A stretch of DNA of 64,000 bases, taken from positions 1-64,000 of the forward strand of contig NZ_VMNI01000004.1 of NCBI RefSeq assembly GCF_007625205.1, given 5' to 3'. Origin of the DNA: Denitromonas ohlonensis (GTDB taxonomy: Bacteria > Pseudomonadota > Gammaproteobacteria > Burkholderiales > Rhodocyclaceae). Below the pieces are notes generated by a model. That model ran no database searches. It was given only the letters and a program-made list of their open reading frames with translations, and was not told the origin of the DNA. Numbering within the stretch: position 1 is the stretch's first letter; every line of letters begins with the position of its first letter. The translations under genes were made by a program, and so were the position numbers. This document shows positions 36,230-52,701 of this stretch, one piece after another.

Positions 36230-38872
36230 GTGAATACGCCCGCCGATATCCCGTCCGAGATTGCTTCCGCCGCACCGCGCAAGGGTGGGCGGATGACGGC
36301 GTTGGTGGCCGTGGCGGTGGTCGCGCTCGCGCTGGCGAGCTGGGGTGGGATGCGGGCGCGGGTGCTCGAGAGCGCCCGGCAGCAATTTGCGCTGGATGCC
36401 GATGCGGTGGTGGCCACGGCCGAGGCGCGCCTGGCGCGGTTTGCCGAGGTGCAGCGTGGTGCGGCAGGCCTGGTTCGCGTGGCGGCCACCGTGCCCACCA
36501 GCGACTGGGAGGCCTATGTCGACGCGCTCAGGCTGACGCGGGCCTTTCCGGGCTTCTCCAGTGTGTCGCTGGGCTGGCGGATTCCCCAAGGTCGGCATGA
36601 TCAGCTCGATCCTTGGGTGAGCGGCGCGGTCGGCGAGTATTTCGATATCCGGCCGGCTGGCGAGCGGCCCGTGTATTTGCCCGTGGTGCGGGTGGCTCCG
36701 GCGCCCATGGACTTGTCACGGGTGCTGGGCTTTGATCTTTTGTCGGACCCGGCCCGTCGGGTGGCTGCCGAGCATGCCTGGCGCTCCGGCGATGTGGCCT
36801 TGTCGGCGCACACCGCCGTGCGCGGCGACACGGGCGAGGGCGCGCCGGTGTTTTCACTGGTGATGCCGGTGTATGCCACGGCCGCACCACCGCTCGACGA
36901 GGCGCAGCGAGAGGCGGCGGCCATGGGCGTGATCAGCGCCGACTTTTTCGCTGCCGAGTTTCTCGAATCGGTGCTGACCGGTCGCGGTCGGCTGCTCGCC
37001 GTTCAGCTCTATGACTCGCGCGACACCGAACTTGCCGAGCGCCTGGCGGTGCGCGGGGTCGATGAACCGTCGGCGCGCTTCGGTGCTGAGCGGCAACTCC
37101 ATTTTGGTGGCCACGCGTGGTTTTTCCGCTTGAGCTCGACGCCGGCCTACGAGGCCTTGATTCCGTGGTGGCAGGCGTATGTGGTCGCCGCTGGCGTTGC
37201 CGCGCTGGGCGCGCTGGTGGTGGTGCTCGTTGGCATGCTCGGCGCCACGCGGCGCAGGGCTGACCGCCTCGCCAAGCGCATGACGGCGGCCCTGCGTGAG
37301 AAGGATCAGCGATTGCGCCTGGCGCTGGAGGGGGCGCAAGAGGGCTGGTGGGATTGGGATCCGGCGCGCGGCGGCATGCTGGCCTCGGATCGCGCCCTGA
37401 AAATTCTTGGCGTGGTCGAGCGCCACCCCGCCAGCCAGTTGCTGGCCGTGTGGCGCAGCCGGCTGCATCCGCAGGATCGCGCCGCGGTCGATGCGGCGAT
37501 TGCGCAGCATCTCGATTTCGACGCCTCGCTCGACATGCGCTACCGCATCGTGCTGCCCGATGGCCTCACCCGGTGGTTGCGCACCCGCGGCAAGGCCCGG
37601 CGGGATGCCACCGGTGCGGTGCTGGGGGTGGCCGGCTTCGTCGCCGACATCACCGCCGAGCAGCTGGCGGCCGAGGCGCAGACGCGGCTGGCCGCGCGCC
37701 ATGCCAGCGCCTTGGCCGCGCTGCCGGACCTGCTCTTCGAGTTTGATGAAGACTGCCGTTATGTGGGCTATCACGCCAGCGATGAGGGTGACCTGGCCAT
37801 GGCGCCGGCAGACTTCATGGGCAAGCGCAGCGCAGACGTTCTGCCGCCGGCGGTGGCGGCCGCGCTGGATGAAGCCTGCCGCAAGGTCGCCGCGAATGGC
37901 GGCGTGGAGCACGTGGAATACACGCTCAATACCTTGAGCGGCGAGGCGCAAAGTTTCGAGGGGCGGGTGGTGCGGGTGGAGACCGGCGGCTTTCTGTGTA
38001 TCGTGCGCAATCTGAGTGAATTCAGGCGTGTCGAGCAGGAACTGACGCGCCATCGCGACAACCTCGCCGATCTGGTGGCGGAGCAGACCATAGATCTGTT
38101 GTTGGCCAAGGATGCGGCCGATCGGGCCAGCCGCGGCAAGAGCGAGTTTCTGGCCACGCTCTCGCACGAGTTGCGCACCCCGCTGCATGCAATTCTCGGC
38201 TTTGCCGAAATGGGGCTGAACCGGGACCTGAGCGAAGCGCGACGCACCCACTGTTTGCAGCGAATCGAGCTCAGCGGGCAGCGCTTGCTCGGCATGGTGT
38301 CTGATCTGCTTGACGTGGCGCGCACCGAATCGGCGCACGGAAAGCTTGCGCTCGCGCCCGTGGACTGGGCCATGGTGTGCCGCGACGTGGTGGATGAGTG
38401 CGAGGCGCTCGCGCAGGCCAAGGGCATGCGGCTGCACCTCGAACTGGCCGAGCATCGGTGTCCGGTGCGGGCAGATGGCTTGCGGTTGCAGCAGGTGGTG
38501 ATGAATCTGGTGACCAACGCGATCAAGTTTTCACCGGTCGGCACACCGGTTGTGTTGCGCCTGGGGGTGCGCGAAGGCGTCTCGTTGCCGGCTGATCCGA
38601 TGCATGGTGAAGTCATGGAGCTGGAAGTGATTGATCAGGGCATCGGTCTGCCCGAGGACGCGGCCGAGCGGCTCTTCGAGGCCTTTGTTCGTGGTCACCC
38701 GGAGCTGCCCGACTCGCCGCCGGGCAGCGGGCTCGGACTGTCGATCTGCCGGCAGTTTGTTGAAGCCTTTGGCGGGCGCATTGCCGCGGCGAATCGCGAC
38801 GGTGGCGGCGCGGTGTTCCGGGTGCAGCTGCCGTGCGCCCAGGTTGGCGTGGTGACGGGGGTCAAGGCGTGA
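36230..38872 (+). CDS. CHASE-PAS sensor histidine kinase (pair 1)
   Basis: An 880-residue membrane kinase. TM1 is at about 23-40, a periplasmic CHASE domain at about 60-290 (DALRLTRAFPGFSSVSLGWRI is typical) and TM2 at about 315-340. PAS-like segments lie at about 365-480 and 500-605. A HisKA box with His646 (LSHELRTPLHAILG) and a HATPase domain to about 870 (NLVTNAIKFSP, DQGIGLP, GSGLGLSI) complete it. CHASE domains sense small extracellular ligands. GTG at 36230 is chosen; ATG at 36293 is the alternative. Its TGA overlaps the GTG of the next gene. Confidence 0.88.
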   Translation: MNTPADIPSEIASAAPRKGGRMTALVAVAVVALALASWGGMRARVLESARQQFALDADAVVATAEARLARFAEVQRGAAGLVRVAATVPTSDWEAYVDALRLTRAFPGFSSVSLGWRIPQGRHDQLDPWVSGAVGEYFDIRPAGERPVYLPVVRVAPAPMDLSRVLGFDLLSDPARRVAAEHAWRSGDVALSAHTAVRGDTGEGAPVFSLVMPVYATAAPPLDEAQREAAAMGVISADFFAAEFLESVLTGRGRLLAVQLYDSRDTELAERLAVRGVDEPSARFGAERQLHFGGHAWFFRLSSTPAYEALIPWWQAYVVAAGVAALGALVVVLVGMLGATRRRADRLAKRMTAALREKDQRLRLALEGAQEGWWDWDPARGGMLASDRALKILGVVERHPASQLLAVWRSRLHPQDRAAVDAAIAQHLDFDASLDMRYRIVLPDGLTRWLRTRGKARRDATGAVLGVAGFVADITAEQLAAEAQTRLAARHASALAALPDLLFEFDEDCRYVGYHASDEGDLAMAPADFMGKRSADVLPPAVAAALDEACRKVAANGGVEHVEYTLNTLSGEAQSFEGRVVRVETGGFLCIVRNLSEFRRVEQELTRHRDNLADLVAEQTIDLLLAKDAADRASRGKSEFLATLSHELRTPLHAILGFAEMGLNRDLSEARRTHCLQRIELSGQRLLGMVSDLLDVARTESAHGKLALAPVDWAMVCRDVVDECEALAQAKGMRLHLELAEHRCPVRADGLRLQQVVMNLVTNAIKFSPVGTPVVLRLGVREGVSLPADPMHGEVMELEVIDQGIGLPEDAAERLFEAFVRGHPELPDSPPGSGLGLSICRQFVEAFGGRIAAANRDGGGAVFRVQLPCAQVGVVTGVKA

Positions 38873-39786
38873 GTGCGGCGGCGCGCCCGCAGATCTTGCT
38901 GGTCGATGACGAGGGTTTCAACCTCGAACTCATGGCCCATGCCCTGTCCAGCCAGGCGTATGACGTGAGTACGGCCGATAGTGGGCGCAGCGCGCTGGCA
39001 CAGATGGCGGCCAGCACCTCGGGTTTCGATCTGGTGGTGCTCGATCAGCGCATGGCGCCGCCCGACGGGCTGGACGTGTTGCGACAGATGCGGAGCCTGC
39101 CGCAACAGGCGCTGACGCCGGTGATCATCCAGACCGCCGTGGCCGATCCGGATACCGTGGCCGAGGGCATTGCCGCCGGCGCTTACTACTACCTTACCAA
39201 GCCGTATCGTGCGAATTCGCTGCTGACCCTGGTGCGCGCGGCACTGGCGAATCATGTCGAGCGTACCCAGCTGTCGCTGGAGGTGCGTGAGCTGCGGCGC
39301 ACGGTGGGCTTGCTGGACGCGGCGCAGTTTCGTCTGCGCAGTGTGGACGAGGCCAGCGCACTCGCCCATGGGCTGGCGGTTTTGTGCGCCACGCCGGATC
39401 TGGCCGCCATCGGTTTGTCCGAGTTGCTGCGCAATGCGGTCGAGCACGGCAACCTGGCGATCGGCTACGAGACCAAGGCCGAGCTGGTGCAAAGTGGTCG
39501 CTGGCGTGACGAGATCGATCGCCGGATGCGCCTGCCGGCCTACCGTGATCGGCGGGTGTGGGTCGAGGTGCGGCGCGCCGTCGAGTCGGTCAGCATCACC
39601 ATTCGCGATGAGGGCGAGGGCTTCGACTGGCGGCCGTTCATGGCGCTGTCGGCCGAGCGGGCGACGCAGGTCAATGGCCGCGGGATCTCGCTCGCCTGCC
39701 GGCTTGGTTTTTTGTCGGTTGCGTATCGCGATGGCGGGCGCGAGGTAATGGTGAGTTGCGCGCCGGCGGTTGGCCGCCCGAACTGA
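38869..39786 (+). CDS. Response regulator fused to RsbW-like HATPase domain (pair 1)
   Basis: A 305-residue cytoplasmic protein. The N-terminal receiver has D59 as phosphoacceptor and K111. A linker leads to a C-terminal GHKL/HATPase domain with N-box LSELLRNAVEHGN (about 185-197), G1-type RDEGEGFDW and NGRGISLA. There is no phosphoacceptor histidine, so the ATPase resembles RsbW-type anti-sigma or Ser kinases rather than a histidine kinase. The GTG start overlaps the kinase stop (GTGA), so the pair is translationally coupled. Confidence 0.83.
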   Translation: MSAAARPQILLVDDEGFNLELMAHALSSQAYDVSTADSGRSALAQMAASTSGFDLVVLDQRMAPPDGLDVLRQMRSLPQQALTPVIIQTAVADPDTVAEGIAAGAYYYLTKPYRANSLLTLVRAALANHVERTQLSLEVRELRRTVGLLDAAQFRLRSVDEASALAHGLAVLCATPDLAAIGLSELLRNAVEHGNLAIGYETKAELVQSGRWRDEIDRRMRLPAYRDRRVWVEVRRAVESVSITIRDEGEGFDWRPFMALSAERATQVNGRGISLACRLGFLSVAYRDGGREVMVSCAPAVGRPN

Positions 39787-39819
39787 GCGTCGAGTGACGC
39801 ACCTGAAGGCGCGGATGTC

Positions 39820-39854
39820 TTGACACTCAGGAATATCAGCATAAACTAATATGC
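39820..39854 (+). promoter_or_regulatory. Putative promoter and dyad at the RND/SQR operon start
   Basis: TTGACA (39820-39825, perfect) lies 16 bp before TAAACT (39842-39847, 4 of 6 matches to the -10). The dyad GCATA-N6-TATGC (39839-39854) overlaps the -10 and ends one base before the GTG start codon, a position where a repressor could block polymerase. Confidence 0.45.
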
Positions 39855-40907
39855 GTGAAATCCCCGACCCACTCCCTCTCCGTTGTCGCGCTGTGTGCGT
39901 TCGCTCTGTCGGCCGCGCCTGCCGTTTTTGCCACCGAGCTTGAAACGGCGCTGGTCGAGCGCGCCGCCACCGGTGTGCGCCATGTGGCCGAAGCCGTTGT
40001 CGAGGCGGTCAATAGCGCCACGATTGCCGCCCAGGTGCAAGGACGCATCACCGAGGTGGCGGCCGACGCCGGCGACCGCGTCAGTGCCGGGCAGGTGCTG
40101 ATGCGCATCGATGCCAGCGAGGCCAATCAGGCCGTCGCTGGCGCCGCGGCATCGGTCGCTCAGGCGCAAGCCACCTATGTGAACGCGCAGGCTGAATGGC
40201 GGCGCAATGTGTCGCTGAAGGAAAAGGGCTTTGTCAGCCAGGCGGTGGTCGATCAGGCCGTGGCGGCAATGAATGTGGCGGCCGCGGGGCTGACCGCAGC
40301 CAAAGCCGGGCGTGGGCAGGCCGCGACCGTGCGCGATTTCACCCGTATTTCGGCGCCGATCAGTGGCGTGGTTGCCGAGCGCCATGCCGAGGTCGGCGAA
40401 ATGGCTCAGCCCGGCCGGCCGCTGCTGACACTTTACGACCCGCGCCAGTTGCGTGTCGTGGCGCAGTTGCCGCAGTCGGTAGCGCAAGGTGTGTCGGGCA
40501 TGCCCTTGGCGGCCGACATCGTGCTGATCGGGCAGGCTGGCCCGGTGGCTGCGACGGCCGTGATGCTGGTGCCGTCGGCCGATCCGAAAACCCACACCAT
40601 GGAAGTGCGCGCGGTGCTGCCGGCGACGGTGGCCGGCGTCGTGCCGGGTCAGTTTGCGCGTTTGATGCTGCAGGTCGGTACCGCGCCGCGTTTGACCATG
40701 CCGGCCGCGGCCGTGCTTCGCCGTGGCGAAGTGACGGCGGTGTATGTCCAGACCGACGCCGGTTTCCGCCTGCGTCAGATACGTCCCGGCGAGGTCTTGC
40801 CGGATGGCCGGATCGAGATTCTGGCCGGCCTGAATGAGGGAGACAGGGTCGCCCTGGATCCCATTAAAGCGAGCCTGTTGCGCCAACAAAACGCTTCACA
40901 ACAATAG
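39855..40907 (+). CDS. RND efflux periplasmic adaptor (membrane fusion protein)
   Basis: A 350-residue protein with a signal peptide (about 1-24), a barrel-sandwich/lipoyl region (AQVQGRITEVAADAGDRVSAGQVL, cut here to its ends, about 55-78), a helical hairpin, and SGVVAERHAEVGEMAQPGRPLL. It links an RND pump to an outer-membrane channel, for which no gene is present here. It starts with GTG at 39855 and no ribosome-binding site is obvious, so a leaderless start is possible. It is the first gene of the SQR/RND operon. Confidence 0.88.
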   Translation: MKSPTHSLSVVALCAFALSAAPAVFATELETALVERAATGVRHVAEAVVEAVNSATIAAQVQGRITEVAADAGDRVSAGQVLMRIDASEANQAVAGAAASVAQAQATYVNAQAEWRRNVSLKEKGFVSQAVVDQAVAAMNVAAAGLTAAKAGRGQAATVRDFTRISAPISGVVAERHAEVGEMAQPGRPLLTLYDPRQLRVVAQLPQSVAQGVSGMPLAADIVLIGQAGPVAATAVMLVPSADPKTHTMEVRAVLPATVAGVVPGQFARLMLQVGTAPRLTMPAAAVLRRGEVTAVYVQTDAGFRLRQIRPGEVLPDGRIEILAGLNEGDRVALDPIKASLLRQQNASQQ

Positions 40908-40997
40908 CGCGGACTCGCACAACGTGTCTGGACGGGACTTCGGCTGCGCCGGCGCCCGGACCGGATGCACCAGTGCTCATGGCTTGGAGGAGAGACG

Positions 40998-42272
40998 ATG
41001 GCGCACATAGTGATTGTTGGAGCGGGGCTCGGCGGACTGCCGATGGCCTACGAAATGAAGGCGCTGGCGCGCGCGGAAGACCGGATCACGGTGGTGGCCA
41101 ACAATGGCCGCTTCCACTTCACGCCATCGAATCCCTGGGTGGCGGTGAACTGGCGCAAGCGCGATGACATCGAACTCGAGATCGCGCCGCTGCTGGCGAA
41201 GAAGAAGATCGAGTTCGTTCAGCAGGCGGTGACTCAGGTGCACGCCTCGGACAACAGCCTGACGCTGGCCGACGGCAGCAGTCTCGAGTACGACATTCTG
41301 GTCATCGCGACCGGCCCGCAGCTGGCTTTTGACGAAATCCCCGGCCTCGGGCCCGAGGGCTTCACCCAGTCGATCTGCCATGTGGATCACGCGGTGACGG
41401 CCGAGGCGAACTGGCAGGCCTTCGTGAACGATCCTGGCCCGATCGTGGTCGGTGCGGTGCAGGGCGCCTCGTGCTTCGGGCCGGCCTACGAGTTCGCGCG
41501 CATCATGGAAACGGACCTGCGCAAGCGCAAGCTGCGCGACCGGGTGCCGATGACCTTCGTCACCTCCGAACCCTACATCGGTCACCTCGGCCTGGGCGGC
41601 GTGGGCGACTCGAAGGGCATGATCGAGTCGATGTTCCGCGACCGCCACATCAAATGGATCTGCAATGCCAAGGTCGACAAGGTCGAGGACGGCACCATGT
41701 TCGTGACCGAGCATGACGACGAAGGCAAGCCGAAGCGCCAGCACGAGTTGCCCTTCAAGTACTCGATGATGCTGCCGGCCTTCCGCGGCATCGATGCGGT
41801 GCGCGGGGTCGAGGGGCTGGTCAATCCGCGCGGCTTCGTGCTGATCGACGAATTCCAGCGCAACCCGCGCTATCCGAACATCTACGGCATCGGCGTGTGT
41901 GTGGCGATTCCGCCGGTGGAGGCCACACCGGTGCCGACCGGCGTGCCCAAGACCGGCTACATGATCGAATCGATGGTCACCGCCACCGCCAAGAACATCC
42001 GCGCCGTGCTCGATGGCGAGCAGCCGGTCGAGCGTGCCACCTGGAACGCGGTGTGCCTGGCCGACTTCGGCGACACCGGCGCGGCCTTCGTGGCGCTGCC
42101 GCAGATTCCGCCACGCAATGTGAACTGGTACTCGGAGGGCCGCTGGGTGCATCTGGCCAAGGTCGGCTTCGAGAAGTACTTCCTGCGCAAGATGAAGAAG
42201 GGCACCACCGAGCCGATCTACGAAAAGATCGTGCTCGACGCGCTCGGCATCATGAAACTCAAGAATCGGTAG
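40998..42272 (+). CDS. sqr: Sulfide:quinone oxidoreductase-like flavoprotein
   Basis: A 424-residue FAD-dependent disulfide-oxidoreductase-fold enzyme. The N-terminal FAD motif is VIVGAGLGGLPMAYE. Cysteines lie where SQR has its sulfide-oxidising residues: SICHVDHA (about 126), GASCFGPAYEF (about 158) and IGVCVAIPPVEATPVPTGVPKTGY (about 300). SQR oxidises sulfide to polysulfide and passes electrons to quinone. The ATG at 40998 has GGAGGAGAG before it. Lying between an RND adaptor and pump, it may serve sulfide detoxification. Confidence 0.87.
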   Translation: MAHIVIVGAGLGGLPMAYEMKALARAEDRITVVANNGRFHFTPSNPWVAVNWRKRDDIELEIAPLLAKKKIEFVQQAVTQVHASDNSLTLADGSSLEYDILVIATGPQLAFDEIPGLGPEGFTQSICHVDHAVTAEANWQAFVNDPGPIVVGAVQGASCFGPAYEFARIMETDLRKRKLRDRVPMTFVTSEPYIGHLGLGGVGDSKGMIESMFRDRHIKWICNAKVDKVEDGTMFVTEHDDEGKPKRQHELPFKYSMMLPAFRGIDAVRGVEGLVNPRGFVLIDEFQRNPRYPNIYGIGVCVAIPPVEATPVPTGVPKTGYMIESMVTATAKNIRAVLDGEQPVERATWNAVCLADFGDTGAAFVALPQIPPRNVNWYSEGRWVHLAKVGFEKYFLRKMKKGTTEPIYEKIVLDALGIMKLKNR

Positions 42273-42282
42273 ATCGCACCAC

Positions 42283-45200
42283 GTGAGCAATGACACCCCC
42301 TCCCTCGGCCTGTCCGGACAAATCGCCAGCGGCTTTCAGCGCAATGCGCTGACGCCGCTGCTGGCGCTGGTGCTGTTCCTGATGGGGGTGTTCGCCACCT
42401 TGATCACCCCCAAGGAGGAAGAGCCCCAGATCGACGTCACCATGGCCAACGTCTTCGTGCCTTTTCCGGGTGCCTCGGCGCGGGAGGTGGAGTCGCTGGT
42501 GTCGCGTCCGGCCGAGCAGGTGCTCTCGCGCATGGCCGGGGTTGAGCATGTGTATTCGGTGTCGCAGCCGGACATGTCGGTGCTCACCGTGCAGTTCGAG
42601 GTCGGTGTGCCCAATCAGGACGCGCTGGTGCGGCTCTACGACACGCTGGAGTCGCACCGCGACTGGCTGCGCCCCGAACTGGGCGTGCTCGAACCCATCG
42701 TCAAGCCGAAGGGCATCGACGATGTGCCGATTGTCGGCCTCACGCTGTGGACCGAGGACCCCGATCGCGCCGGCTTCGACATGCAGCAGGTGGCCCGCGC
42801 GATCGAGATCGACCTCAAGCGCATCCCCGGCACGCGTGACGTGGTGACCATCGGCGGCCCCGGCCATGTGCTGCGCGTGCTGATGGACCCGGCGCGGATG
42901 AACGCGCATGGCGTGACGGCGGCGGACCTCAAAGCCGCGCTGCAGGTGTCGAATGCCTCGCAATCCGCCGGCCGGCTGGTGGCCGACAATCAGGAGGTGC
43001 TGGTGCAGACCGGCACCTACATCAGCTCGGCGCAGGATGTGCGCGCGTTGGTGGTGGGCGTGGCCGACGGCAAGCCGGTGTATCTGTCGGACGTGGCCGA
43101 GGTAGCCAACGGGCCGGACCAGCCCTCGCGCTATGTGTGGTTCGGCGCGGGTGCGGCGGCGGCCGAGCGCGGCATCGACACCGCTGGGGTATCGCCCGCG
43201 GTGACGCTGTCGGTGTCGAAAAAGCCCGGCGCCAATGCCTCGGACGTGGCCAACGCGCTGCTCGCCCGCGTCGAGACCTTGCGGGGCACGGTGATCCCCG
43301 AGGGCGTCAACGTCACCGTCACCCGCAACTACGGCGAAACCGCCAACGACAAGGCCAACAAGCTGATCGGCAAGCTGGTGTTCGCCACCAGCGCGGTGGT
43401 CTTGCTGGTGCTGCTCACGCTGGGCTGGCGCGAGGCGGTCATCGTCGGTCTGGCGGTCACGCTGACCCTGGCGGCGACGCTGTTCGCGTCCTGGGCCTGG
43501 GGCTTCACGCTCAACCGGGTGAGCCTGTTCGCGCTCATTTTCTCGATCGGCATTCTGGTGGACGATGCCATCGTGGTGGTCGAGAACATCCATCGCTGGC
43601 ATTTGCTCGAACCGGACAAACCGCTGTGGCAGCTGATTCCCAAGGCCGTCGACGAGGTCGGCGGGCCGACCATTCTCGCCACCTTCACGGTGATCGCGGC
43701 GCTGCTGCCGATGGCCTTTGTGTCGGGCCTGATGGGCCCCTACATGAGCCCGATCCCGATCAATGCCTCGATGGGCATGTTCATCTCGCTGCTGGTGGCC
43801 TTTATCGTCACCCCGTGGCTGGCGCAGAAGATGCTCAAGTCGACCAGTGGCCACGCCCATGCCGGCGAAGACCGCATGACGCGGCGGCTCACCGCCTTCT
43901 TCCGCGCAGTCATCGGCCCCTTGATCGATGCCAAGCGCGGCCGGCGCAACCGCAGCCTGCTGTGGCTGCTGGTGATCGCGCTGATCGCCGGCTCGGTGGC
44001 GCTGGCGGCGGTCAAGCTGGTGGTGCTCAAGATGCTGCCGCTGGACAACAAGTCGGAATTCCAGGTGGTGCTCGACATGCCGGTGGGCACGCCGCTGGAG
44101 CGCACTGCGCAGGTGCTGCTGGAGATCGGCGAGGCGGTGGGCAAGACGCCCGAAGTGACCGACTGGCAAGCCTACGCCGGCACCGCCAGCCCGATCAACT
44201 TCAACGGCCTGGTGCGCCAGTACTACCTGCGCAGCGCGCCGGAGCAGGGCGACTTGCAGATCAATCTGGTCGACAAGGCGCACCGTGATCGCAGCAGCCA
44301 TGAGGTGGCCGGTGCGGTGCGTGCGGCGGTCACCGCCATCGCGCGAGCGCACGGCGGCAACGCCAAGGTGGTCGAAGTGCCGCCCGGCCCGCCGGTGCTC
44401 TCGCCCATCGTCGCCGAAGTCTATGGCCCGGACTACACCGGCCAGCTGGCGGTGGCGCAGCAGGTGCGCGAGGTCTTCGACACCACGCCCGACATCGTCG
44501 GCGCCGACGACAGCATCGACGAGACCGCGCCCAAGCTGGTGCTGCGGGTCAATCAGGCCAAGGCGGCGCTGATGGGCGTGGCGCAGGCGCAGATCGTTGA
44601 AGTGATGCGCCTCGGTCTCGCCGGTGAGAGCGTGACGCCGCTGCATGGCGGCGACAACAAGTACGAGATCCCGGTGCGCATCCAGTTGCCGCCCACGCAG
44701 CAGTCAACGGTGGCGCATCTGCTGCAACTCAAGCTGCGCGCGCAGGACGGCACGCTGATACCGGTGTCCGAGCTGGTCAGCGTACACCCCACCGAGCGCG
44801 ACCAGGTCATCTATCACAAGGACTTGCTGCCGGTGGTGTATGTGACCGCCGATATGGCCGGCGCGCTCGACTCGCCGCTCTACGGCATGTTCGACATCCG
44901 CAGCCAGATCAAGGACATGCCGCTGGTGGGCGAGCGCCTGGCTGGCGTGCTGGACGAGTGGTTCATCCAGCAGCCGCACGACCCCTACGCCGGCTACAGC
45001 GTGAAATGGGACGGCGAGTGGCAAGTGACCTACGAGACCTTCCGCGACATGGGCGCCGCCTACGCGGTCGGCCTGATCCTGATTTACCTGCTGGTGGTGG
45101 CGCAGTTCCGCCGCTATCTGGTGCCGCTGATCATCATGGCGCCGATCCCGCTGACCATCATCGGCGTGATGCCCGGCCACGCCTTGCTTGGCGCGCAATT

Positions 45201-45549
45201 CACCGCCACCTCGATGATCGGCATGATCGCGCTGGCCGGCATCATCGTGCGCAACTCCATCTTGCTGGTGGACTTCATCAACCACCAGGTGCGCGCCGGC
45301 GTGCCCTTTGCCGAGGCGGTGATCACCTCGGCCGCGGTGCGCGCCAAGCCGATCGGCCTGACCGCGCTGGCCGCCATGATTGGCGCCGCCTTCATTCTCG
45401 ACGACCCGATCTTCAACGGCCTGGCGATCAGCCTCATCTTCGGCATCCTGGTGTCCACGGTGCTGACGCTGGTGGTGATCCCGGTGCTGTATTTCGCGGC
45501 CATGCGCCATCGCGTGGCTGAACTGCAATCAGAAGGACATCCGTCATGA
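42283..45549 (+). CDS. RND-family efflux pump
   Basis: A 1088-residue AcrB/MexB-like inner-membrane pump with two hydrophobic halves of about six segments each, separated by periplasmic loops. The first half carries the ILVDDAIVVVENIHR motif with the adjacent aspartates of the proton relay (about residues 427-441). The substrate is unknown. The GTG start lies 11 nt after sqr; the stop overlaps the DUF2892 ATG. Confidence 0.92.
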   Translation: MSNDTPSLGLSGQIASGFQRNALTPLLALVLFLMGVFATLITPKEEEPQIDVTMANVFVPFPGASAREVESLVSRPAEQVLSRMAGVEHVYSVSQPDMSVLTVQFEVGVPNQDALVRLYDTLESHRDWLRPELGVLEPIVKPKGIDDVPIVGLTLWTEDPDRAGFDMQQVARAIEIDLKRIPGTRDVVTIGGPGHVLRVLMDPARMNAHGVTAADLKAALQVSNASQSAGRLVADNQEVLVQTGTYISSAQDVRALVVGVADGKPVYLSDVAEVANGPDQPSRYVWFGAGAAAAERGIDTAGVSPAVTLSVSKKPGANASDVANALLARVETLRGTVIPEGVNVTVTRNYGETANDKANKLIGKLVFATSAVVLLVLLTLGWREAVIVGLAVTLTLAATLFASWAWGFTLNRVSLFALIFSIGILVDDAIVVVENIHRWHLLEPDKPLWQLIPKAVDEVGGPTILATFTVIAALLPMAFVSGLMGPYMSPIPINASMGMFISLLVAFIVTPWLAQKMLKSTSGHAHAGEDRMTRRLTAFFRAVIGPLIDAKRGRRNRSLLWLLVIALIAGSVALAAVKLVVLKMLPLDNKSEFQVVLDMPVGTPLERTAQVLLEIGEAVGKTPEVTDWQAYAGTASPINFNGLVRQYYLRSAPEQGDLQINLVDKAHRDRSSHEVAGAVRAAVTAIARAHGGNAKVVEVPPGPPVLSPIVAEVYGPDYTGQLAVAQQVREVFDTTPDIVGADDSIDETAPKLVLRVNQAKAALMGVAQAQIVEVMRLGLAGESVTPLHGGDNKYEIPVRIQLPPTQQSTVAHLLQLKLRAQDGTLIPVSELVSVHPTERDQVIYHKDLLPVVYVTADMAGALDSPLYGMFDIRSQIKDMPLVGERLAGVLDEWFIQQPHDPYAGYSVKWDGEWQVTYETFRDMGAAYAVGLILIYLLVVAQFRRYLVPLIIMAPIPLTIIGVMPGHALLGAQFTATSMIGMIALAGIIVRNSILLVDFINHQVRAGVPFAEAVITSAAVRAKPIGLTALAAMIGAAFILDDPIFNGLAISLIFGILVSTVLTLVVIPVLYFAAMRHRVAELQSEGHPS

Positions 45550-45770
45550 CGCTGACCGTCAATCAATTCGTTCGCATCTTCGCCGGCGCCTTTGTGCTCA
45601 TCTCGCTGGCGCTGGGGGTGGAAGCCTCGCCGCTGTTCGTGAACGCTAACTTTCTGTGGTTTACCGCCTTTGTCGGCGCCAATCTTTTCCAGAGCGGCTT
45701 CACCGGGCTGTGCCCGCTGGAGACCGTCCTGCGCAAGCTCGGCGTCAAGGACAGCATCGGCTGCAGCTGA
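45546..45770 (+). CDS. DUF2892/YgaP-like membrane protein
   Basis: A 74-residue protein with two hydrophobic segments and the conserved GFTGLCPLETVLRKLG end typical of DUF2892, the membrane part of YgaP-type rhodanese proteins. It is frequently encoded beside sulfur-oxidising enzymes. The ATGA overlap with the RND stop indicates co-translation. Confidence 0.88.
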   Translation: MTLTVNQFVRIFAGAFVLISLALGVEASPLFVNANFLWFTAFVGANLFQSGFTGLCPLETVLRKLGVKDSIGCS

Positions 45771-45828
45771 GCCTCAATCAGGGGCGTTCTGCCCTCAAGT
45801 CAGCGCGGGTTTGGGCCGATAAGCAGGA

Positions 45829-48800
45829 ATGTCGTCCCCCGACTCCGCTTCGCTGACTTTGCCTGAGACATCTTCCGGCGCTGAGGCTCACGCCGCCCGC
45901 GCCGCGTCCTTGCGCCGGGCGTTTCCCCTCGCGCTGATGGTGTTGCTGCTTGGCGTGGTACTGACCTGGGCCGGCGCACACTATGTCGACCGTCTGGAGT
46001 CCGCACGGACGCAGCAAGATACCGAGCACGCCGTCAATCGGGTGACCGCCGCCCTGCAGGAGCGGCTGAACTACTACATCGGCCATATGCGCGCCGCGGC
46101 CGGGCTGTTTGTCGCCTCGGAACGAGTGAGTCTGTTTGAGTGGGAGCGTTACATCGCCACCACTGAGTTGCGCCCCCTCAACGAGATGGGCGCGGCCGGG
46201 CTGGTGTACGCCCCGCGGGTCGCCGCTGACCGGCGGGCCGACTGGGAAGACTTCATGTTCTACGCCTACGACCGGGTCATCGCGATTCGCGGCTCGGCCG
46301 AAGGCGCGGCGTTTCCTGCCCAGTTCGCGGCGCCGCGGGTCAGCACGCTGGAGGTGATTCTGGGTTTCGATCTGGCCTCCAATCCTGTCCGTCGTGCGGC
46401 GATCGAAGCGTCGATCACGCGCGGTGACATCGTGCTCAGTGCGGCCATTACGCTCAAGGACGCGGGAGATGCTTCACCCGCCGGCATCCTCGCCTTGCCG
46501 GTGTTCCATCCGGCCAAAGAGCTGCGGCACGACGTGCCCGACCGTGATCTGGTGCGCGGCGTCGTAGTGCTCGGCGTCCGCTATGGCGACTGGATCGCCT
46601 CGGTGTCGAATGACTGGATCGACAAGGTTCAGGTTGAACTGCTGGATGAAACCGATGCGCTTGCCGTTCCTCTCGTGTCGCTGGGCATGTCGCCGGCCAG
46701 GCCTGGCGTGTCGCGGCGGCTGGTGGTTGGCGGGCGTCAGTTACGCCTGGTTTTCTATCCGGTCGCGCAACTGGGTGACAATGTTGCCGGGCTCACGGTG
46801 CGGGCGGCGGGTGCCTTGCTGACCCTGGCCTTTGCTTTGCTGACCTTCTATCTGGCCTCGGGCCGACATCGTGCCCTGGCGTCGGCAGAGCGTATCGGTG
46901 GTGCGCTGGCGGAGTCGGAGCGACGTTTTTCCCTGGCCGCGACAGCCACCAGCGACGGCATCTGGGAGTGGGCCTCCGACCGGCCCGAGATGTATTTGTC
47001 GGCGCGGGCCCAGTACATGCTGTTTGGCGCTCCGAGGTCGGGCCCCATTGGCTGGCGTGATGTTCTGCATTGTCTGGCCCCTGACGAGCGGCGGGTGTTG
47101 TTGCTCGCCTTGCGCGGGCATTTGCGCCATCGACAGCCGCTGGAAGTTGCCATTCGCGTCCCGGGCGGCGATGGCGAGGACCGTCAGTTGTTGGTTCGTG
47201 GGCGGGCGGCATGGGACGCCGTTGGCCGGGCGGCACGCGTGGCCGGCGCCATTTCCGATGTCTCGTTGCTGCATGAGCGCGAAGTGGCGCTGGAGCGGGC
47301 GCGAGAGTTTTACGCGCGGGTGCTCGATTTCCTCCCGCATCCGGTGTTGGTCAAGTCGGCCGATCATCGGTATGTGCTCGCCAATCAGGCCGCCGGGGTG
47401 TTTCTCGGACGCGAATCCGAAAGCATTGTGGGGCTGCGGACCGAGGATGTGTTGCCGGGCCAGTCGGCCAAGCATCTGGCCGAAGATGCGCGGGCGCTTG
47501 CCGGCGCGGTCAGCACGCAGGAGTTTCATCTGACGCTCGATAGCGGCAGCGAGCACGACGCGATCATCAGCAAGGCGGGCGTTGCCGGCCTCGATGGCGA
47601 GCCGGTGGTGCTGGTGACGATCACCGATGTGAGTGCGTTGCGCCGCGTGGAGCAAGCGCTCAAATCGTCCCTGTCCGAGCTCGACGCATTGTTCCGTAAC
47701 TCCCCCTTGGGCATGGCGATGGTGCGGGTCGACGGCAGCATCGTGCGGGTCAATGAGGCGTTTTCGCAGATTGTCGGCGTGGCGGCGGATGCCCTGCCCG
47801 GGATGCGCTACGCCGAACTGACGCCGCCGCGCCTGCATGCGCTGGATCGAGAGAAGACGATTGATGCCTTGCATGAGGGTGTGGTGACGCCATATGAGCG
47901 CGCCTTCGTTCGCCCCGACGGCACCGAAGTGCCGGTGTTGCTGAGCGGCGCGGTGATGCGTGAAGAGGAGGGCGGTACCGCGATCTGGACGGTGGTCGAA
48001 GATATTTCCGAACGCAAGGCGGCCGAGGCGGAACTGGCGGCAGCGCACGCCACCAATGCGTCCATCATTGAGGCGATGCCCGACATTCTGGTGCAGTTCG
48101 ACGCCGATCTGCGCCTGGTTGCGGTGCGTACGCGGCAAGGTGCGCCGCTGACCGTGGGGATGGACGGTGCGCTTGGGCGGCCGCTGGAAGAAATCATTTC
48201 TCAGAAGCGGTTTGCACAAGTGGTGCCGACCCTGCGCCGGGCGCACATGACCGGCCAGTTGCAGTGTGTGGAATACCAGGCGCCGGACCCCGACGGCATG
48301 ATTCAGGACTATGAAGCCCGGGTCGCCCCGGTGGGCACCGGCGGATTGCTGGTGGTGCTGCGCAATGTGTCGGAACTCAAGGCCCGGGAGCGCGCGTTGC
48401 GCGAGAGCGAGGCCCGTTTCCGGCTGCTGGCCGACGCTGCGCCCGTGGTGATCTGGCTGGCCGACCCGACGCTCAACATCACCTATGTCAATCGAAGCTG
48501 GCGAACGCTGACCGGTATGACCAGGGTGGATGTTCAGGGCACGGACTGGTTGCGTTATGTGCATCCGGATGATCTGGCCGCGGTGAAAGAGGTCGGCCGG
48601 GAGGCGCGTCAAACCCAAAAGGCCTATCAGCTTGAGTTCCGGGTGCGCCGGCCCGGCGGGCGCTATGCCTGGCTGATGGCCAAGGGCGAGCCGCGGGTCG
48701 ACGATCAGGGCCGCCTCGTGGGCTTTATCGGTGTCGGTGTGGATATTTCGAATGAAAAGAAGGCGAACGAGGCCTTGCGCCAGCATCGCGATCACCTGGC

Positions 48801-49623
48801 CGAACTGGTGTCAGAGAAGACGGCCGGGCTGATCGAGGCGAAGGAGGTGGCCGAGCGGGCCAACGAAGCCAAGTCGCGCTTTCTGGCCAACATGTCGCAC
48901 GAGCTGCGCTCGCCGATGCATGCGGTGCTCAGTTATGCCCGCCTGGGCGAGAACAAGGCGCTCAGTGCGCCGGCAGACAAACTGCAGGACTATTTTCAAC
49001 GCATCCGCAGTAGTGGCGACCGTCTGTTGAAACTGGTCGACAACCTGCTCGATCTGTCCAAGCTCGAAGCCGGGCGCATGGTGCTCGATATTCAGCCCCT
49101 GGCGCTCAGTGCGGTGCTCGATGAGGTGCTCGATGAGGTCGAAGGGCTTCGGGTGGCCCGAGGGATTCAACTGGCGACACAGATTCAAGACGTGCCCGCC
49201 GTTGCGGGAGATGCTCCGCGCATTGGTCAGGTGGTACGCAATCTGTTGTCCAATGCGATCAAATTCTCGCCCGCGGGCGGGGAGATTCTTGTACAAGTGG
49301 GGCATGACACATTGCCTTGCGGTCGGCGCACCGACGATGCCGGCGACCGCGACGCCGTCGCCTTGCGCGTGATTGATCAAGGCATCGGCATACCCGATGC
49401 GGAACTCGAAGCGGTATTCGACAAATTCGTGCAAAGTAGTGTGACCCGAACCGGTGCAGGCGGGACGGGTCTGGGTCTGGCAATTTGCCGCGAAATCCTG
49501 CTCGCGCATGGCGGCCGGATTCACGCCCGAAACATGGCAGGCGGGGGGGGCTGCTTCGAAATCATACTGCCGGCGTTCTCGCCGGCCGACGGACGCTTGG
49601 CGGAGGAGCAGCTGGAACCATGA
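45829..49623 (+). CDS. CHASE-multi-PAS sensor histidine kinase (pair 2)
   Basis: A 1264-residue membrane kinase. TM1 is at about 28-48, a CHASE domain at about 70-290 and TM2 at about 322-345. Four or so PAS/PAC modules follow to about 985 (the last shows RSWRTLTGMTRVDVQG and YAWLMAKGEPRVD). A coiled segment leads to HisKA with His1024 (NMSHELRSPMHAVLS) and a HATPase domain to about 1258 (NLLSNAIKFSP, DQGIGIPD, GTGLGLAI). It is the larger relative of the kinase at 36230. Its stop overlaps the next ATG. Confidence 0.89.
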   Translation: MSSPDSASLTLPETSSGAEAHAARAASLRRAFPLALMVLLLGVVLTWAGAHYVDRLESARTQQDTEHAVNRVTAALQERLNYYIGHMRAAAGLFVASERVSLFEWERYIATTELRPLNEMGAAGLVYAPRVAADRRADWEDFMFYAYDRVIAIRGSAEGAAFPAQFAAPRVSTLEVILGFDLASNPVRRAAIEASITRGDIVLSAAITLKDAGDASPAGILALPVFHPAKELRHDVPDRDLVRGVVVLGVRYGDWIASVSNDWIDKVQVELLDETDALAVPLVSLGMSPARPGVSRRLVVGGRQLRLVFYPVAQLGDNVAGLTVRAAGALLTLAFALLTFYLASGRHRALASAERIGGALAESERRFSLAATATSDGIWEWASDRPEMYLSARAQYMLFGAPRSGPIGWRDVLHCLAPDERRVLLLALRGHLRHRQPLEVAIRVPGGDGEDRQLLVRGRAAWDAVGRAARVAGAISDVSLLHEREVALERAREFYARVLDFLPHPVLVKSADHRYVLANQAAGVFLGRESESIVGLRTEDVLPGQSAKHLAEDARALAGAVSTQEFHLTLDSGSEHDAIISKAGVAGLDGEPVVLVTITDVSALRRVEQALKSSLSELDALFRNSPLGMAMVRVDGSIVRVNEAFSQIVGVAADALPGMRYAELTPPRLHALDREKTIDALHEGVVTPYERAFVRPDGTEVPVLLSGAVMREEEGGTAIWTVVEDISERKAAEAELAAAHATNASIIEAMPDILVQFDADLRLVAVRTRQGAPLTVGMDGALGRPLEEIISQKRFAQVVPTLRRAHMTGQLQCVEYQAPDPDGMIQDYEARVAPVGTGGLLVVLRNVSELKARERALRESEARFRLLADAAPVVIWLADPTLNITYVNRSWRTLTGMTRVDVQGTDWLRYVHPDDLAAVKEVGREARQTQKAYQLEFRVRRPGGRYAWLMAKGEPRVDDQGRLVGFIGVGVDISNEKKANEALRQHRDHLAELVSEKTAGLIEAKEVAERANEAKSRFLANMSHELRSPMHAVLSYARLGENKALSAPADKLQDYFQRIRSSGDRLLKLVDNLLDLSKLEAGRMVLDIQPLALSAVLDEVLDEVEGLRVARGIQLATQIQDVPAVAGDAPRIGQVVRNLLSNAIKFSPAGGEILVQVGHDTLPCGRRTDDAGDRDAVALRVIDQGIGIPDAELEAVFDKFVQSSVTRTGAGGTGLGLAICREILLAHGGRIHARNMAGGGGCFEIILPAFSPADGRLAEEQLEP

Positions 49624-50519
49624 GTCAGATCCGTATTCTTGTTGTTGATGATGAGCCCTTCAATCTGGACATCATCAGCGAATATCTCGAGGGCGCCGGC
49701 TATTTGCTGCAGATGGCCGAGAGTGGTGAGGAGGCCTGGACCTACCTGCGTCGCGGCGATTCGCGCTTCGACCTGGTGGTGCTCGACCGCATGATGCCCG
49801 GCATCGATGGGCTGGAACTGCTGCGCTGGCTCAAGGCGGACCGCCGTCTGGCCGACATTCCCGTCATCATGCAGACCGCCGCGGCCAGCCCCGAGCAGGT
49901 GCGCGAAGGGCTGGCCGCGGGGGCGTATTACTACCTCACCAAGCCCTTCGAGCCCGAGAGCCTGCAGAGCATCGTGCGGGCAGCGCTCGACGACCTGCAT
50001 CAGCGTCGCGCTCTGGCCGAACGGCTGGCCGCGCAGCGTCACGCATTGCAGACCTTGCAGCACGGCGTCTTTGCGTTTCGCACCATGGAAGAGGCGCACG
50101 GCCTGGCCGCCCTCGCCGCCTCGATCTGCGATGAGCCCGACGTGGTTGTGCTGGGTTTGTCCGAATTGTTGGTCAATGGCGTCGAACACGGCAATCTCGC
50201 GATCTGCTTCGACGAAAAATCGCGTTTGCGCGAGGCAGGCGAGTGGGAAGCTGAAGTCAAGCGCCGCCTGGCGCTGCCCGAGAATCAGAGCAAGTATGTG
50301 CGGCTCACGGTGGCCTCCGACCCCCTGGCCTGGGTGTTTTCGATCGAAGACGAAGGCGGCGGCTTTGTGTGGCAGGACTTTCTCGAACTGGCGCCGGAGC
50401 GCGCCTTTGCTCCCAATGGACGCGGCATCGCGCTGGCCCGCCAACTGGCCTTCGATGAGCTCGAATACCAGGGCAACGGGAATTGCGTGCGGGCAACGGT
50501 GCGCAAGCGGCGGCATTAA
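49620..50519 (+). CDS. Response regulator fused to RsbW-like HATPase domain (pair 2)
   Basis: A 299-residue protein with the same layout as the one at 38869. The receiver has D56 and K108, then a C-terminal GHKL domain with LSELLVNGVEHGN, EDEGGGFVW and NGRGIALA. The two proteins share long stretches of the ATPase domain (GLSELL, VEHGNLAI), so they are paralogues. The ATGA overlap couples it to the CHASE kinase. It precedes a receiver-PAS-SpoIIE gene by 118 bp. Confidence 0.84.
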   Translation: MSQIRILVVDDEPFNLDIISEYLEGAGYLLQMAESGEEAWTYLRRGDSRFDLVVLDRMMPGIDGLELLRWLKADRRLADIPVIMQTAAASPEQVREGLAAGAYYYLTKPFEPESLQSIVRAALDDLHQRRALAERLAAQRHALQTLQHGVFAFRTMEEAHGLAALAASICDEPDVVVLGLSELLVNGVEHGNLAICFDEKSRLREAGEWEAEVKRRLALPENQSKYVRLTVASDPLAWVFSIEDEGGGFVWQDFLELAPERAFAPNGRGIALARQLAFDELEYQGNGNCVRATVRKRRH

Positions 50520-50637
50520 CGCGGTCAATGCATCGCCGCCGCGGTGTGGTATTTGTGGCCTCGCCCGGCGCAGAATTCGGGCACACTAGGCAAAAAGACA
50601 TAGTCGGTGACGCGGCCGTGGCGGAGAAATCCGCGGC

Positions 50638-52218
50638 ATGACGCGCGTCGGCAGAATAACGAGCGATACGATGTCGAGTGCAGCGCTGAGCGTTCTCGTG
50701 GTGGATGACACCTCCGCCAACCGAAACCTGATGGCGGCCTTTCTTGCCAAACTGGGGCATGAGGCCGTGTTCGCCGTTGACGGCGTCGAAGCGCTTGAGC
50801 GCTTTGGTCAGCGTCGCCCCGACATGATCCTGATGGATCTGATGATGCCACGCATGGACGGCTTTGAGGCCACCCGGCTGGTGCGCGAGCGGCAAGGCGC
50901 CATCTGGACGCCCATCGTCATCATGTCGGCGCTCAACTCCGACGCCGATATCGTCGCTGGCCTGGACGCCGGCGCGGACGACTACCTGGTCAAGCCTGTG
51001 TCTTTCGCGGTATTCGCGGCCAAGATGCGCACCATCCAGCGCCTGCTCGAGATGGAGCGCCGGCAGCGCGAGTTGCTGGACCGGATGCACGCCATATCGA
51101 ATGCGGTCATCGACGGCATCATCACCATCGACGAGACCGGTGTGATCCAGTCCGCCAACCCGGCCGCATGCAAGATGTTCGGCTACGAGAACGACGCGCT
51201 GGCCGGCAAGAGCGTCAGCGTGCTGGCCGCGCCGCCGGATGGCCGGCAGAGCGACCGTCAGCTGGCGAACTACCTGGCCGGTGGGACGGCCGGTATGATT
51301 GGCACCGTCCGCGAACTCCAAGGCGAGCGCGCCGATGGCGAGGTGTTTCCGCTAGAGGTCGGCGTGACCGAGCTGCAGATCGATGATCACCGCCTGTATA
51401 TCGGCGTGATGCGCGATATCAGCGAGCGCCTCATTCAGCATGCCGCCCTGGCCGAAAACGCCGCCCGCCTGCAGCGCTATCACGACGAGCAGCAACGCGA
51501 GCAGGAACTGGCCCGCCAGATCATGGCCAGCCAGGTCGACGCCGCCGGGCTGCGCGATGCGCGGGTGCACTTTACGGTGATGCCGGCGCGACGGTTTTCG
51601 GGCGACCTCGTGGTCGCTGCCAGCTCGCCCGGCGGCCGGCTCTACGCCATGCTGGCGGATGCGACCGGGCACGGCCTGTCGGCGGCGATCAGCGTTCAAC
51701 CGGTGTTGCCGGTGTTTTATGCGCTGGTGGCGCGCGACGTGCCACTGGCACAGCTGGTGGGCGAACTGAATGCGGTCTTGCACCGCTCCTTGCCGATTGG
51801 CCGTTTCGTCGGCGCCGCGCTGGCCTGCCTGAATCGTCAGGGTGACGATGTCGAGATCTGGGTGGGCGGGGTGCCGGAGATGGTGCTGGTCGGGGCCGAT
51901 GGACGAGTGCGCCAGCGCTTCGAATCCAATCACCTGCCGCTTGGCGTGATCGAAACGGGCACGGAAGGCTGTGAAGTTGCGCATGCCCGGACGCTCCCGG
52001 GCGATCAGTTGGTGATGTATTCCGACGGCGTCATTGAGGCGACCAATGACAAGGCCGAGGGCTTCGGGCGCTTGCGCCTGGAGGAAGTGTTGCGCGCGCA
52101 TGCCAAGGACATGCGCATCGACGCGTTGCGCATTGCGCTGGCCGAGCATCTGGCGGGCGCGTCGGCTCACGACGACATGTCGGCGCTCATGCTCGACTGC
52201 GCACCGCATCCGCACTGA
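50638..52218 (+). CDS. Receiver-PAS-SpoIIE phosphatase regulator
   Basis: A 526-residue protein. The N-terminal receiver has D67 (MILMDLMMPRMDG) and DDYLVKP. A PAS domain lies at about 145-270 (IITIDETGVIQSANPAACKMFG) and a C-terminal SpoIIE/PP2C-like phosphatase at about 300-520 (YAMLADATGHGLSAAI, YSDGVIEATN, DDMSALML). Such proteins dephosphorylate anti-anti-sigma factors in partner-switching pathways. The ATG at 50638 is used; ATG at 50671 (MSSAALSVLVVDD) is a fair alternative because the first ATG abuts a hairpin. Confidence 0.85.
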   Translation: MTRVGRITSDTMSSAALSVLVVDDTSANRNLMAAFLAKLGHEAVFAVDGVEALERFGQRRPDMILMDLMMPRMDGFEATRLVRERQGAIWTPIVIMSALNSDADIVAGLDAGADDYLVKPVSFAVFAAKMRTIQRLLEMERRQRELLDRMHAISNAVIDGIITIDETGVIQSANPAACKMFGYENDALAGKSVSVLAAPPDGRQSDRQLANYLAGGTAGMIGTVRELQGERADGEVFPLEVGVTELQIDDHRLYIGVMRDISERLIQHAALAENAARLQRYHDEQQREQELARQIMASQVDAAGLRDARVHFTVMPARRFSGDLVVAASSPGGRLYAMLADATGHGLSAAISVQPVLPVFYALVARDVPLAQLVGELNAVLHRSLPIGRFVGAALACLNRQGDDVEIWVGGVPEMVLVGADGRVRQRFESNHLPLGVIETGTEGCEVAHARTLPGDQLVMYSDGVIEATNDKAEGFGRLRLEEVLRAHAKDMRIDALRIALAEHLAGASAHDDMSALMLDCAPHPH

Positions 52219-52398: not shown

Positions 52399-52701
52399 AT
52401 GAATCCATATGACGACCGACGCGCTTCCCGGCGAATTCCCCTGGGCTGCAATGCCATGATCAAGCCCGCCGGCCAAGCGCCTGCCGTGCCGGCGCACTGC
52501 ATTGAGCTGAGCCCCGGCGGCATGACGCTGGAGAGCGACTATGTGCCGAGTCTGTCGGAAATGCTCGACGTGCTGGTGCGCCAGCCCGAAGGCGGGCTGG
52601 AGCGCCCACCCTTGCATGTGCGGGTGGAGGTCAAGCGTTGCCACAAGTCCGAGTCGGGCAAATACGTGCTCGGCGCGCAGATCGTACAAGTGCTCAAATA
52701 G
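52399..52701 (+). CDS. PilZ-domain protein
   Basis: A 100-residue protein with the cyclic-di-GMP-binding RRASRRIP sequence (RxxxR, residues about 7-14) and ELSPGGM in place of the usual D/NxSxxG box, so Glu replaces Asp/Asn. It may act as a stand-alone PilZ adaptor for motility or surface functions. The ATG at 52399 gives the natural domain start. It follows the SpoIIE protein gene by 180 bp, in which I see no gene. Confidence 0.82.
   Translation: MNPYDDRRASRRIPLGCNAMIKPAGQAPAVPAHCIELSPGGMTLESDYVPSLSEMLDVLVRQPEGGLERPPLHVRVEVKRCHKSESGKYVLGAQIVQVLK

Follow-up and report, generated by a model that had tools for sequence, protein, structure and literature searches.

The 64 kb stretch of Denitromonas ohlonensis contig NZ_VMNI01000004.1 analyzed here (the window, whose positions serve as coordinates throughout) encodes two membrane sensor histidine kinases, HK1 and HK2, each paired with a response regulator, RR1 or RR2, that joins a receiver to an RsbW-like ATPase domain, and a further regulator, RRSpoIIE, that joins a receiver to a SpoIIE phosphatase (Table 1). 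An open reading frame check and Pfam searches placed these five genes exactly where a preliminary description of this DNA had put them. The stop codon of each kinase gene overlaps the start codon of its regulator (GTG for RR1 and ATG for RR2) by four bases. NCBI taxonomy assigns Denitromonas to the Zoogloeaceae, Rhodocyclales; the family and the order of the genome samples used below we take to be the Rhodocyclaceae and Burkholderiales of GTDB. RRSpoIIE is 98% identical to the phosphatase of Denitromonas halophila SFB-3.

Table 1. Features of the window and of other loci in the D. ohlonensis genome (positions without an L number are window positions)
Feature	Position	Strand	Length (aa)	Description
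HK1	36230..38872	+	880	membrane sensor kinase; CHASE, two PAS, HisKA, HATPase_c (Pfam); frame open from 36140
RR1	38869..39786	+	305	receiver and RsbW-like ATPase; accessory kinase arm
HlyD-type adaptor	39855-40907	+		between the two sensor blocks
FAD/NAD oxidoreductase	40965-42272	+		between the two sensor blocks
RND-type pump	42283-45549	+		between the two sensor blocks
HK2	45829..49623	+	1264	membrane sensor kinase; CHASE, several PAS, HisKA, HATPase_c (Pfam)
RR2	49620..50519	+	299	receiver and RsbW-like ATPase; main kinase arm
RRSpoIIE	50638..52218	+	526	receiver-PAS-SpoIIE phosphatase; phosphatase arm
PilZ-domain protein	52399..52701	+	100	downstream of RRSpoIIE
PP2C-Ser/Thr protein kinase fusion	53069-54781	-	570	SpoIIE-profile match
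Transporter	54967-56436			adjoins the preceding gene
PP2C-Ser/Thr protein kinase fusion	L030:352-2124	-	590	SpoIIE-profile match
che-linked STAS protein	L031:12240-12539, contig C2		99	anti-sigma-antagonist type
SulP permeases with STAS	L002, L003, L004			three proteins (Pfam)
MlaB	L005			STAS protein in mlaA-mlaC operon
Protein with two STAS stretches	L006:1480-2625	-	381	no other Pfam domain

The C-terminal domains of RR1 and RR2 are RsbW/SpoIIAB-type GHKL ATPases. Pfam matched RR2 to Response_reg at 97.2 bits and to HATPase_c_2 at 40.4 bits, and RR1 to the same two families at 82.4 and 22.8 bits, the last under the cut-off of 27.4 bits; it listed HisKA in neither protein. NCBIfam searches with the regulators and kinases returned just receiver, PAS, and kinase-core matches to other families, below cut-off except for a generic PAS model. 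Despite its low Pfam score, the RR1 domain is confirmed as an ATPase of this type by its motifs and predicted fold. When RR1, RR2, and 52 relatives were aligned (54 regulators), the N-box Glu, Asn, Glu, and His, the Asp-x-Gly-x-Gly of G1, and the Gly-Arg-Gly of G2 proved invariant, the sole exception among the tested positions being one Asn-to-Ser change ahead of G2. The receiver phospho-acceptor position of the same proteins holds Asp in 50, Asn in one, and a gap in three. A model of the RR1 ATPase domain (predicted local distance difference test, pLDDT, 80.3; predicted template modeling score, pTM, 0.77) is of low confidence at residues 136-147, which are probably the ATP lid. Foldseek matched this model best to LvrC of Leptospira (E 9.2e-8), followed by SpoIIAB (3.2e-4) and RsbW (4.2e-3), and VIA-align gave Z scores of 12.9 for LvrC, 10.7 for RsbW, and 10.4 for SpoIIAB, with sensor histidine kinases and mitochondrial kinases reaching about 6 at best. 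LvrC is also the best match of a full-length RR2 model across 330-340 alignment columns, the domain arrangement in that model being uncertain (pLDDT 82.6; pTM 0.56). The preliminary description had read both proteins as RsbW-like ATPases without a phosphoacceptor histidine domain and had named a fold outside the GHKL group as grounds for giving up its idea; the Pfam results, the motifs, and the structure comparison all bear out the first reading. At about 300 amino acids each, with a receiver and an RsbW-like ATPase, RR1 and RR2 have the architecture of TciR and LvrC.

RRSpoIIE matches Response_reg, PAS, and SpoIIE in Pfam, the last at 122.1 bits. The tested SpoIIE catalytic Asp positions hold Asp in 61/61 or 60/61 proteins, the odd one being an unread X, which gives RRSpoIIE the catalytic Asp residues of the SpoIIE/PP2C phosphatase in an RsbU/V/W-type partner-switching module. 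It is the one REC-SpoIIE (receiver-SpoIIE) phosphatase of the genome. The two other SpoIIE-profile matches score 27.9 and 26.8 bits against a cut-off of 25 and are PP2C-protein kinase fusions; the gene of one of them adjoins what we take, from its sequence, to be a nitrate/nitrite transporter gene. The Pfam domains of RR2 and RRSpoIIE thus agree with the earlier view that each arm, kinase and phosphatase, has a receiver to itself. Single chains of the HsbR/CrsR type (REC-PP2C-HATPase) were not found, since the window protein, REC-PAS-SpoIIE, has no HATPase and the others in the genome are the PP2C-kinase fusions. Chains of the SypE type (RsbW-like domain, REC, PP2C) were not found either, the fused relatives described below having a different order.

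HK2, RR2, and RRSpoIIE recur as a block. One search of 199 family genomes gave 74 with a full-length RRSpoIIE match, meaning a match that begins no later than query residue 12 (one, in genome G163, ends at residue 300), and 73 of these 74 carry an RsbW-like domain somewhere. We examined 60 neighborhoods from 59 of the 74 genomes, the window's own being extra and 14 genomes lying outside the set, with about 9 kb on each side or less at contig ends. In 52 of the 60 regions the gene immediately upstream of the phosphatase gene is RsbW-like, with a receiver detected in 49 of those 52, and a histidine kinase gene also stands beside the two in 46 regions. No neighbor was counted in the remaining eight, of which L073 does have a regulator whose overlapping frame had been filtered out. 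The sensor part of the block kinase varies, with CHASE similarity in just some relatives. Two of the three genomes of genus g41 carry both arms in one chain, REC-HATPase-REC-SpoIIE (L123 by Pfam and L124 by homology); in the third, G097, the arms are apart, judging from frame length. The kinase and phosphatase arms therefore usually travel together, probably under one sensor, and since the block of HK2, RR2, and the phosphatase is conserved, HK2 probably commands both arms. The proposal that each arm has a sensor of its own consequently stands for the accessory RR1, which has HK1, and gives way for RR2 and RRSpoIIE, which probably share HK2.

Several irregularities were noted in and around the block. 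RR2 is split in L036 (9052-9287), where a run of N and repetitive G/C mark an assembly gap and not biology, and RR2 frames are broken in L066 and L069. A weak terminator match between RR2 and RRSpoIIE was set aside, as the region held 15 such sites versus 4.9 in shuffles, and a scan of the region gave no promoter-like site.

HK1-RR1 is an accessory second kinase arm in which RR1 has its own sensor, and the preliminary count of two kinase arms is upheld by the receiver and RsbW-like ATPase of both RR1 and RR2. Two RsbW-like matches at most 11 kb apart on one contig occur in 14 genomes (pairs picked by eye). In the examined loci of genera g1, g37, and g50 (the window, L115-L119, L121, and L122), the upstream copy lies beside hlyD-RND genes, and in loci of three genera HlyD and RND separate the accessory RsbW-like gene from HK2, with the oxidoreductase present only in some. 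RR1 and five such upstream copies form one clade with a FastTree support of 0.97, L115 and L120 falling outside it. A free-standing RsbW-like domain of 161-179 amino acids with no receiver detected occupies the RR1 position at L115:9642-10124 and L116:8482-9018; in the L116 domain the first G1 Asp reads Asn. Our reading is that RR1 is an accessory kinase input for which sensor control was acquired or kept in Denitromonas.

An RsbW-like kinase and a SpoIIE phosphatase would be expected to share a STAS substrate, and the preliminary description had seen no STAS protein in the window. That observation was reproduced: neither a STAS query (E 1e-4) nor a STAS hidden Markov model (HMM; E 0.1) found one in positions 30001-60000, and two whole-genome Pfam searches placed none in the 64 kb. 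The same description had recommended a genome-wide search and had counted consistent linkage of these genes to unrelated outputs, with no STAS partner in the whole genome, as fatal to its idea; the search instead gave a plausible partner. Among the STAS proteins of the genome (Table 1), the 99-residue che-linked protein alone passes the NCBIfam anti-sigma antagonist cut-off of 53.45 bits, scoring 59.5, and the others reach at most 24 bits. The 381-residue protein with two STAS stretches is another possible partner-switch component. The gene order around the che-linked gene, on a contig other than the window's, is cheA, cheW, MCP (methyl-accepting chemotaxis protein), cheR, cheD, cheB, STAS, MCP, cheV. 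The protein carries the motif YLDSSALGM(L), with YLDSSALGM identical in 9/9 aligned copies, and its Ser54 is, judging from this motif, probably the phosphorylation site. The genome thus has a STAS protein with a phosphorylatable Ser, as an RsbU/V/W-type module does, though one unlinked to the block. The STAS gene follows cheB in all 10 fetched family loci (chosen by us, from six genera), and in two of the 10, both from g37, an HsbR-like REC-SpoIIE-HATPase gene comes next; no HsbR-like gene was seen in the Denitromonas che cluster. By eye, a number of family genomes have STAS and flgM on one contig, about 14-24 kb apart, and in D. ohlonensis the two are on different contigs. It is the location of STAS in a chemotaxis operon that hints at motility. 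A search of the open-licence PMC literature for Denitromonas together with chemotaxis found nothing.

The RsbW-like domain and the che-linked STAS are inherited together. In the family (n=199), 87 genomes have both, 11 the domain alone, eight STAS alone, and 93 neither (Fisher 6.5e-34). When STAS was permuted within genera, the observed domain-STAS concordance of 180 (mean 167.1) was reached in 0/10000 permutations, and the RRSpoIIE-STAS concordance of 172 (mean 164.2) in 8/10000. Outside the family, 367 order genomes (a sample of 379 from which 12 of the window's own family were removed) divide into 70 with both, three with the domain alone, 32 with STAS alone, and 262 with neither. Domain and STAS are each associated with FlgM, making flagella a possible confounder; among the 170 FlgM-positive family genomes, 84 have both, 10 the domain alone, five STAS alone, and 71 neither, nine of the FlgM-negative genomes being deduced from the table. 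The thresholds for the domain (at least 72 bits in the family and at least 115 in the order) and for STAS (at least 67 and at least 62 bits) were set after viewing the lists. Below them, a family genome with a 21-bit match (G101) and 13 order genomes with just 20-46-bit matches, mostly to HsbR-type frames, counted as without the domain, and six order genomes with weak STAS matches (E about 2e-8 to 9e-6) as without STAS. The tests leave some effects of ancestry in. Because the domain is nearly always accompanied by STAS and STAS is often found without the domain, the pattern fits a regulator that needs STAS.

These counts bear on a first alternative, in which the main role of the RsbW-like domains is that of receiver-controlled anti-sigma factors, sequestering a sigma factor without an intermediary, with STAS not essential. 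This model has been proposed for TciR and LvrC, the latter being the closest solved structure, and 14 of the 171 genomes with the domain (11/98 in the family and 3/73 outside) have no STAS orthologue. Yet STAS is present in the other 157, the kinase motifs are conserved, and the adjacent SpoIIE phosphatase would have no obvious role without a phosphoprotein substrate. CrsR, moreover, does both, so that direct sequestration need not exclude a partner switch. We judge it unlikely to be the main function.

Among 20 order-level regions, four were chosen for having the RsbW-like and STAS genes on one contig: three, from family f3, hold a histidine kinase and RR-HATPase gene pair 5, 8, and 12 kb from cheB-STAS-HsbR-like genes, and the fourth shows a gap of about 18 kb. 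The STAS and HsbR-like genes are neighbors in the four regions L141-L144. In three further regions (f29 and f39) a REC-SpoIIE gene adjoins the regulator, and the remaining 13 gave no SpoIIE match, with an adjacent kinase in some and not in others, an arrangement resembling TciKR. A second alternative is that the block is a partner switch with some other STAS substrate, such as the 381-residue protein or MlaB, and that the che-linked STAS serves HsbR-type systems only. The adjacency of STAS to HsbR-like genes in g37 and in L141-L144 would suit it, as would the genomes with STAS and no RsbW-like domain (8/199 and 32/367) and the existence of the two-STAS protein. Denitromonas, however, keeps the che-linked STAS while its che cluster shows no HsbR-like gene and its genome has only one REC-SpoIIE phosphatase, and the genome's other STAS proteins score under the anti-sigma antagonist cut-off. 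An alternative substrate therefore seems rather improbable.

We favor a reading in which HK2 and its two regulators, RR2 and RRSpoIIE, make up a two-regulator partner switch acting on the che-linked STAS, with RR1 as a second kinase input, and put its probability at roughly 0.6. It draws on the domains, the motifs, the predicted ATPase fold, the gene order, the single REC-SpoIIE phosphatase, and the presence and co-inheritance of STAS; the one-chain form in g41 and the linkage in f3 also speak for it. HK2 would sense an extracytoplasmic signal and phosphorylate both receivers, that of RR2 and that of RRSpoIIE. Phosphotransfer would shift the balance between the RsbW-like serine kinase of RR2 and the phosphatase of RRSpoIIE, which would act oppositely on a serine of STAS, probably Ser54. 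The phosphorylation state of STAS would then decide its binding partner, either the RsbW-like domains or an output factor, for which the analogy with HsbA and CrsA makes FlgM and RpoS candidates. RR1, with its sensor HK1, would feed the same switch as a second kinase input. We infer the direction of each arm, as we do the phosphotransfer, the substrate, and the output. A PilZ gene, noted in the window (52399-52701) and at L059-L063 and L066, lies downstream of the phosphatase gene in the window and in genus g50, directly so in g50, and several kb off in some other relatives; its product may be tied to the switch as a candidate output. In a broader version, the TciR/LvrC-like receiver-RsbW regulators of the Burkholderiales (in the GTDB sense, as we assume for the order sampled) would as a rule be receiver-gated serine kinases of one conserved HsbA-type STAS of the chemotaxis cluster. 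With a receiver-gated phosphatase under the same histidine kinase they would become a push-pull device, through which membrane sensors that are not part of chemotaxis could tune motility or the general stress response. This version is more tentative, and we hold it at somewhat less than even odds.

A number of observations count against the favored reading. Co-occurrence is not interaction, and some of it could stem from a common lifestyle or common ancestry; in the family, the domain also tracks FlgM, with 94 genomes having both, four the domain alone, 76 FlgM alone, and 25 neither, and the domain occurs without a STAS orthologue in the genomes counted above. No STAS was found in the 60 fetched block neighborhoods with the STAS query and HMM. 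In g37, where STAS already adjoins an HsbR-like controller, the block could have another target. The g50 counterpart of RR1 is a free-standing RsbW-like domain with no receiver detected, and that of g37 has a weak receiver (20.5 bits in L118, cut-off 30.2). The authors of the TciR study report no RsbV homologue in Vogesella (PMC12826045). Finally, partial distance correlations between the DHp domain of HK2 and the two receivers were -0.07 and 0.00, in what is a weak test with 45 triads; the same test gave 0.39 for DHp and the RR2 ATPase part and 0.22 for the RR2 ATPase and SpoIIE, values not used as support. The negative kinase-receiver result, together with the position of HK1-RR1 outside the block and next to a pump operon, would suit a third alternative in which two ordinary two-component pairs with unusual outputs and a phosphatase are chance neighbors with no common target. 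Conservation of the block, fusion of both arms in g41, and co-inheritance with STAS speak against chance, and we consider this alternative very improbable.

Kinase, phosphatase, and STAS protein are reportedly separate proteins in SiaABC. A 2018 survey of conserved partner switches by Bouillet and others may describe related forms. RsbW-type domains phosphorylate STAS proteins and SpoIIE-type phosphatases dephosphorylate them; unphosphorylated HsbA binds FlgM, its phosphorylated form binds HsbD or HsbR, and RpoS is a ligand of HsbR/CrsR domains (PMC5085249, PMC6482189). HsbR-HsbA of Pseudomonas and CrsR-CrsA of Shewanella thus share with the Denitromonas system a receiver-controlled serine kinase and a PP2C phosphatase directed at a small STAS protein, with links to FlgM/FliA and RpoS, but they hold receiver, phosphatase, and kinase/anti-sigma domain in one chain (PMC5085249, PMC6482189), whereas Denitromonas has two regulators and no such chain was seen in its genome. 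Because that one-chain architecture is absent, the Denitromonas system would work like HsbR-HsbA without being a member of its family. SypE-SypA of Vibrio fischeri likewise combines an RsbW-like kinase, a receiver, and a phosphatase acting on STAS, but in one chain, listed as kinase, REC, phosphatase (PMC12826045, PMC8256260). In RbaV-RbaW-RbaY of Rhodobacter capsulatus, the kinase, phosphatase, and STAS are separate proteins and RbaY is REC-PP2C; RbaW, however, is described as having just a HATPase domain, and the available text describes no sensor kinase block with both arms (PMC3999984).

The individual regulators have closer relatives. TciK-TciR of the betaproteobacterium Vogesella indigofera places a histidine kinase beside a receiver and RsbW-like regulator without a DNA-binding domain, a likeness drawn from description and not sequence, but no phosphatase arm, STAS partner, or substrate is reported in the text available (PMC12826045). 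Since the same paper counts about 100 proteins of receiver-RsbW architecture, already noted in an earlier response-regulator census (PMC12826045), this type of regulator is known. LvrC of Leptospira (PDB 9qih) also has a receiver and a Bergerat/RsbW-like domain and is the best structural match of the RR1 ATPase and full-length RR2; it differs in being driven by LvrB, a Rec-controlled histidine kinase, and is a proposed anti-sigma factor, with no phosphatase arm described in the available text (PMC13269768). The TciR (2025) and LvrC (2026) studies describe receiver-RsbW regulators still in want of a target, and the locus, the fused form, and STAS co-inheritance point to a specific candidate substrate and a candidate enzyme to oppose the kinase. 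If the favored reading is true, one sensor drives both partner-switch arms through two separate response regulators. One sensor with two receiver-bearing arms in a block was not found in searches of the open-licence PMC literature, seen largely as titles and the beginnings of abstracts. We therefore regard the arrangement of two receiver-bearing arms and one sensor as new and the underlying kind of switch as known.

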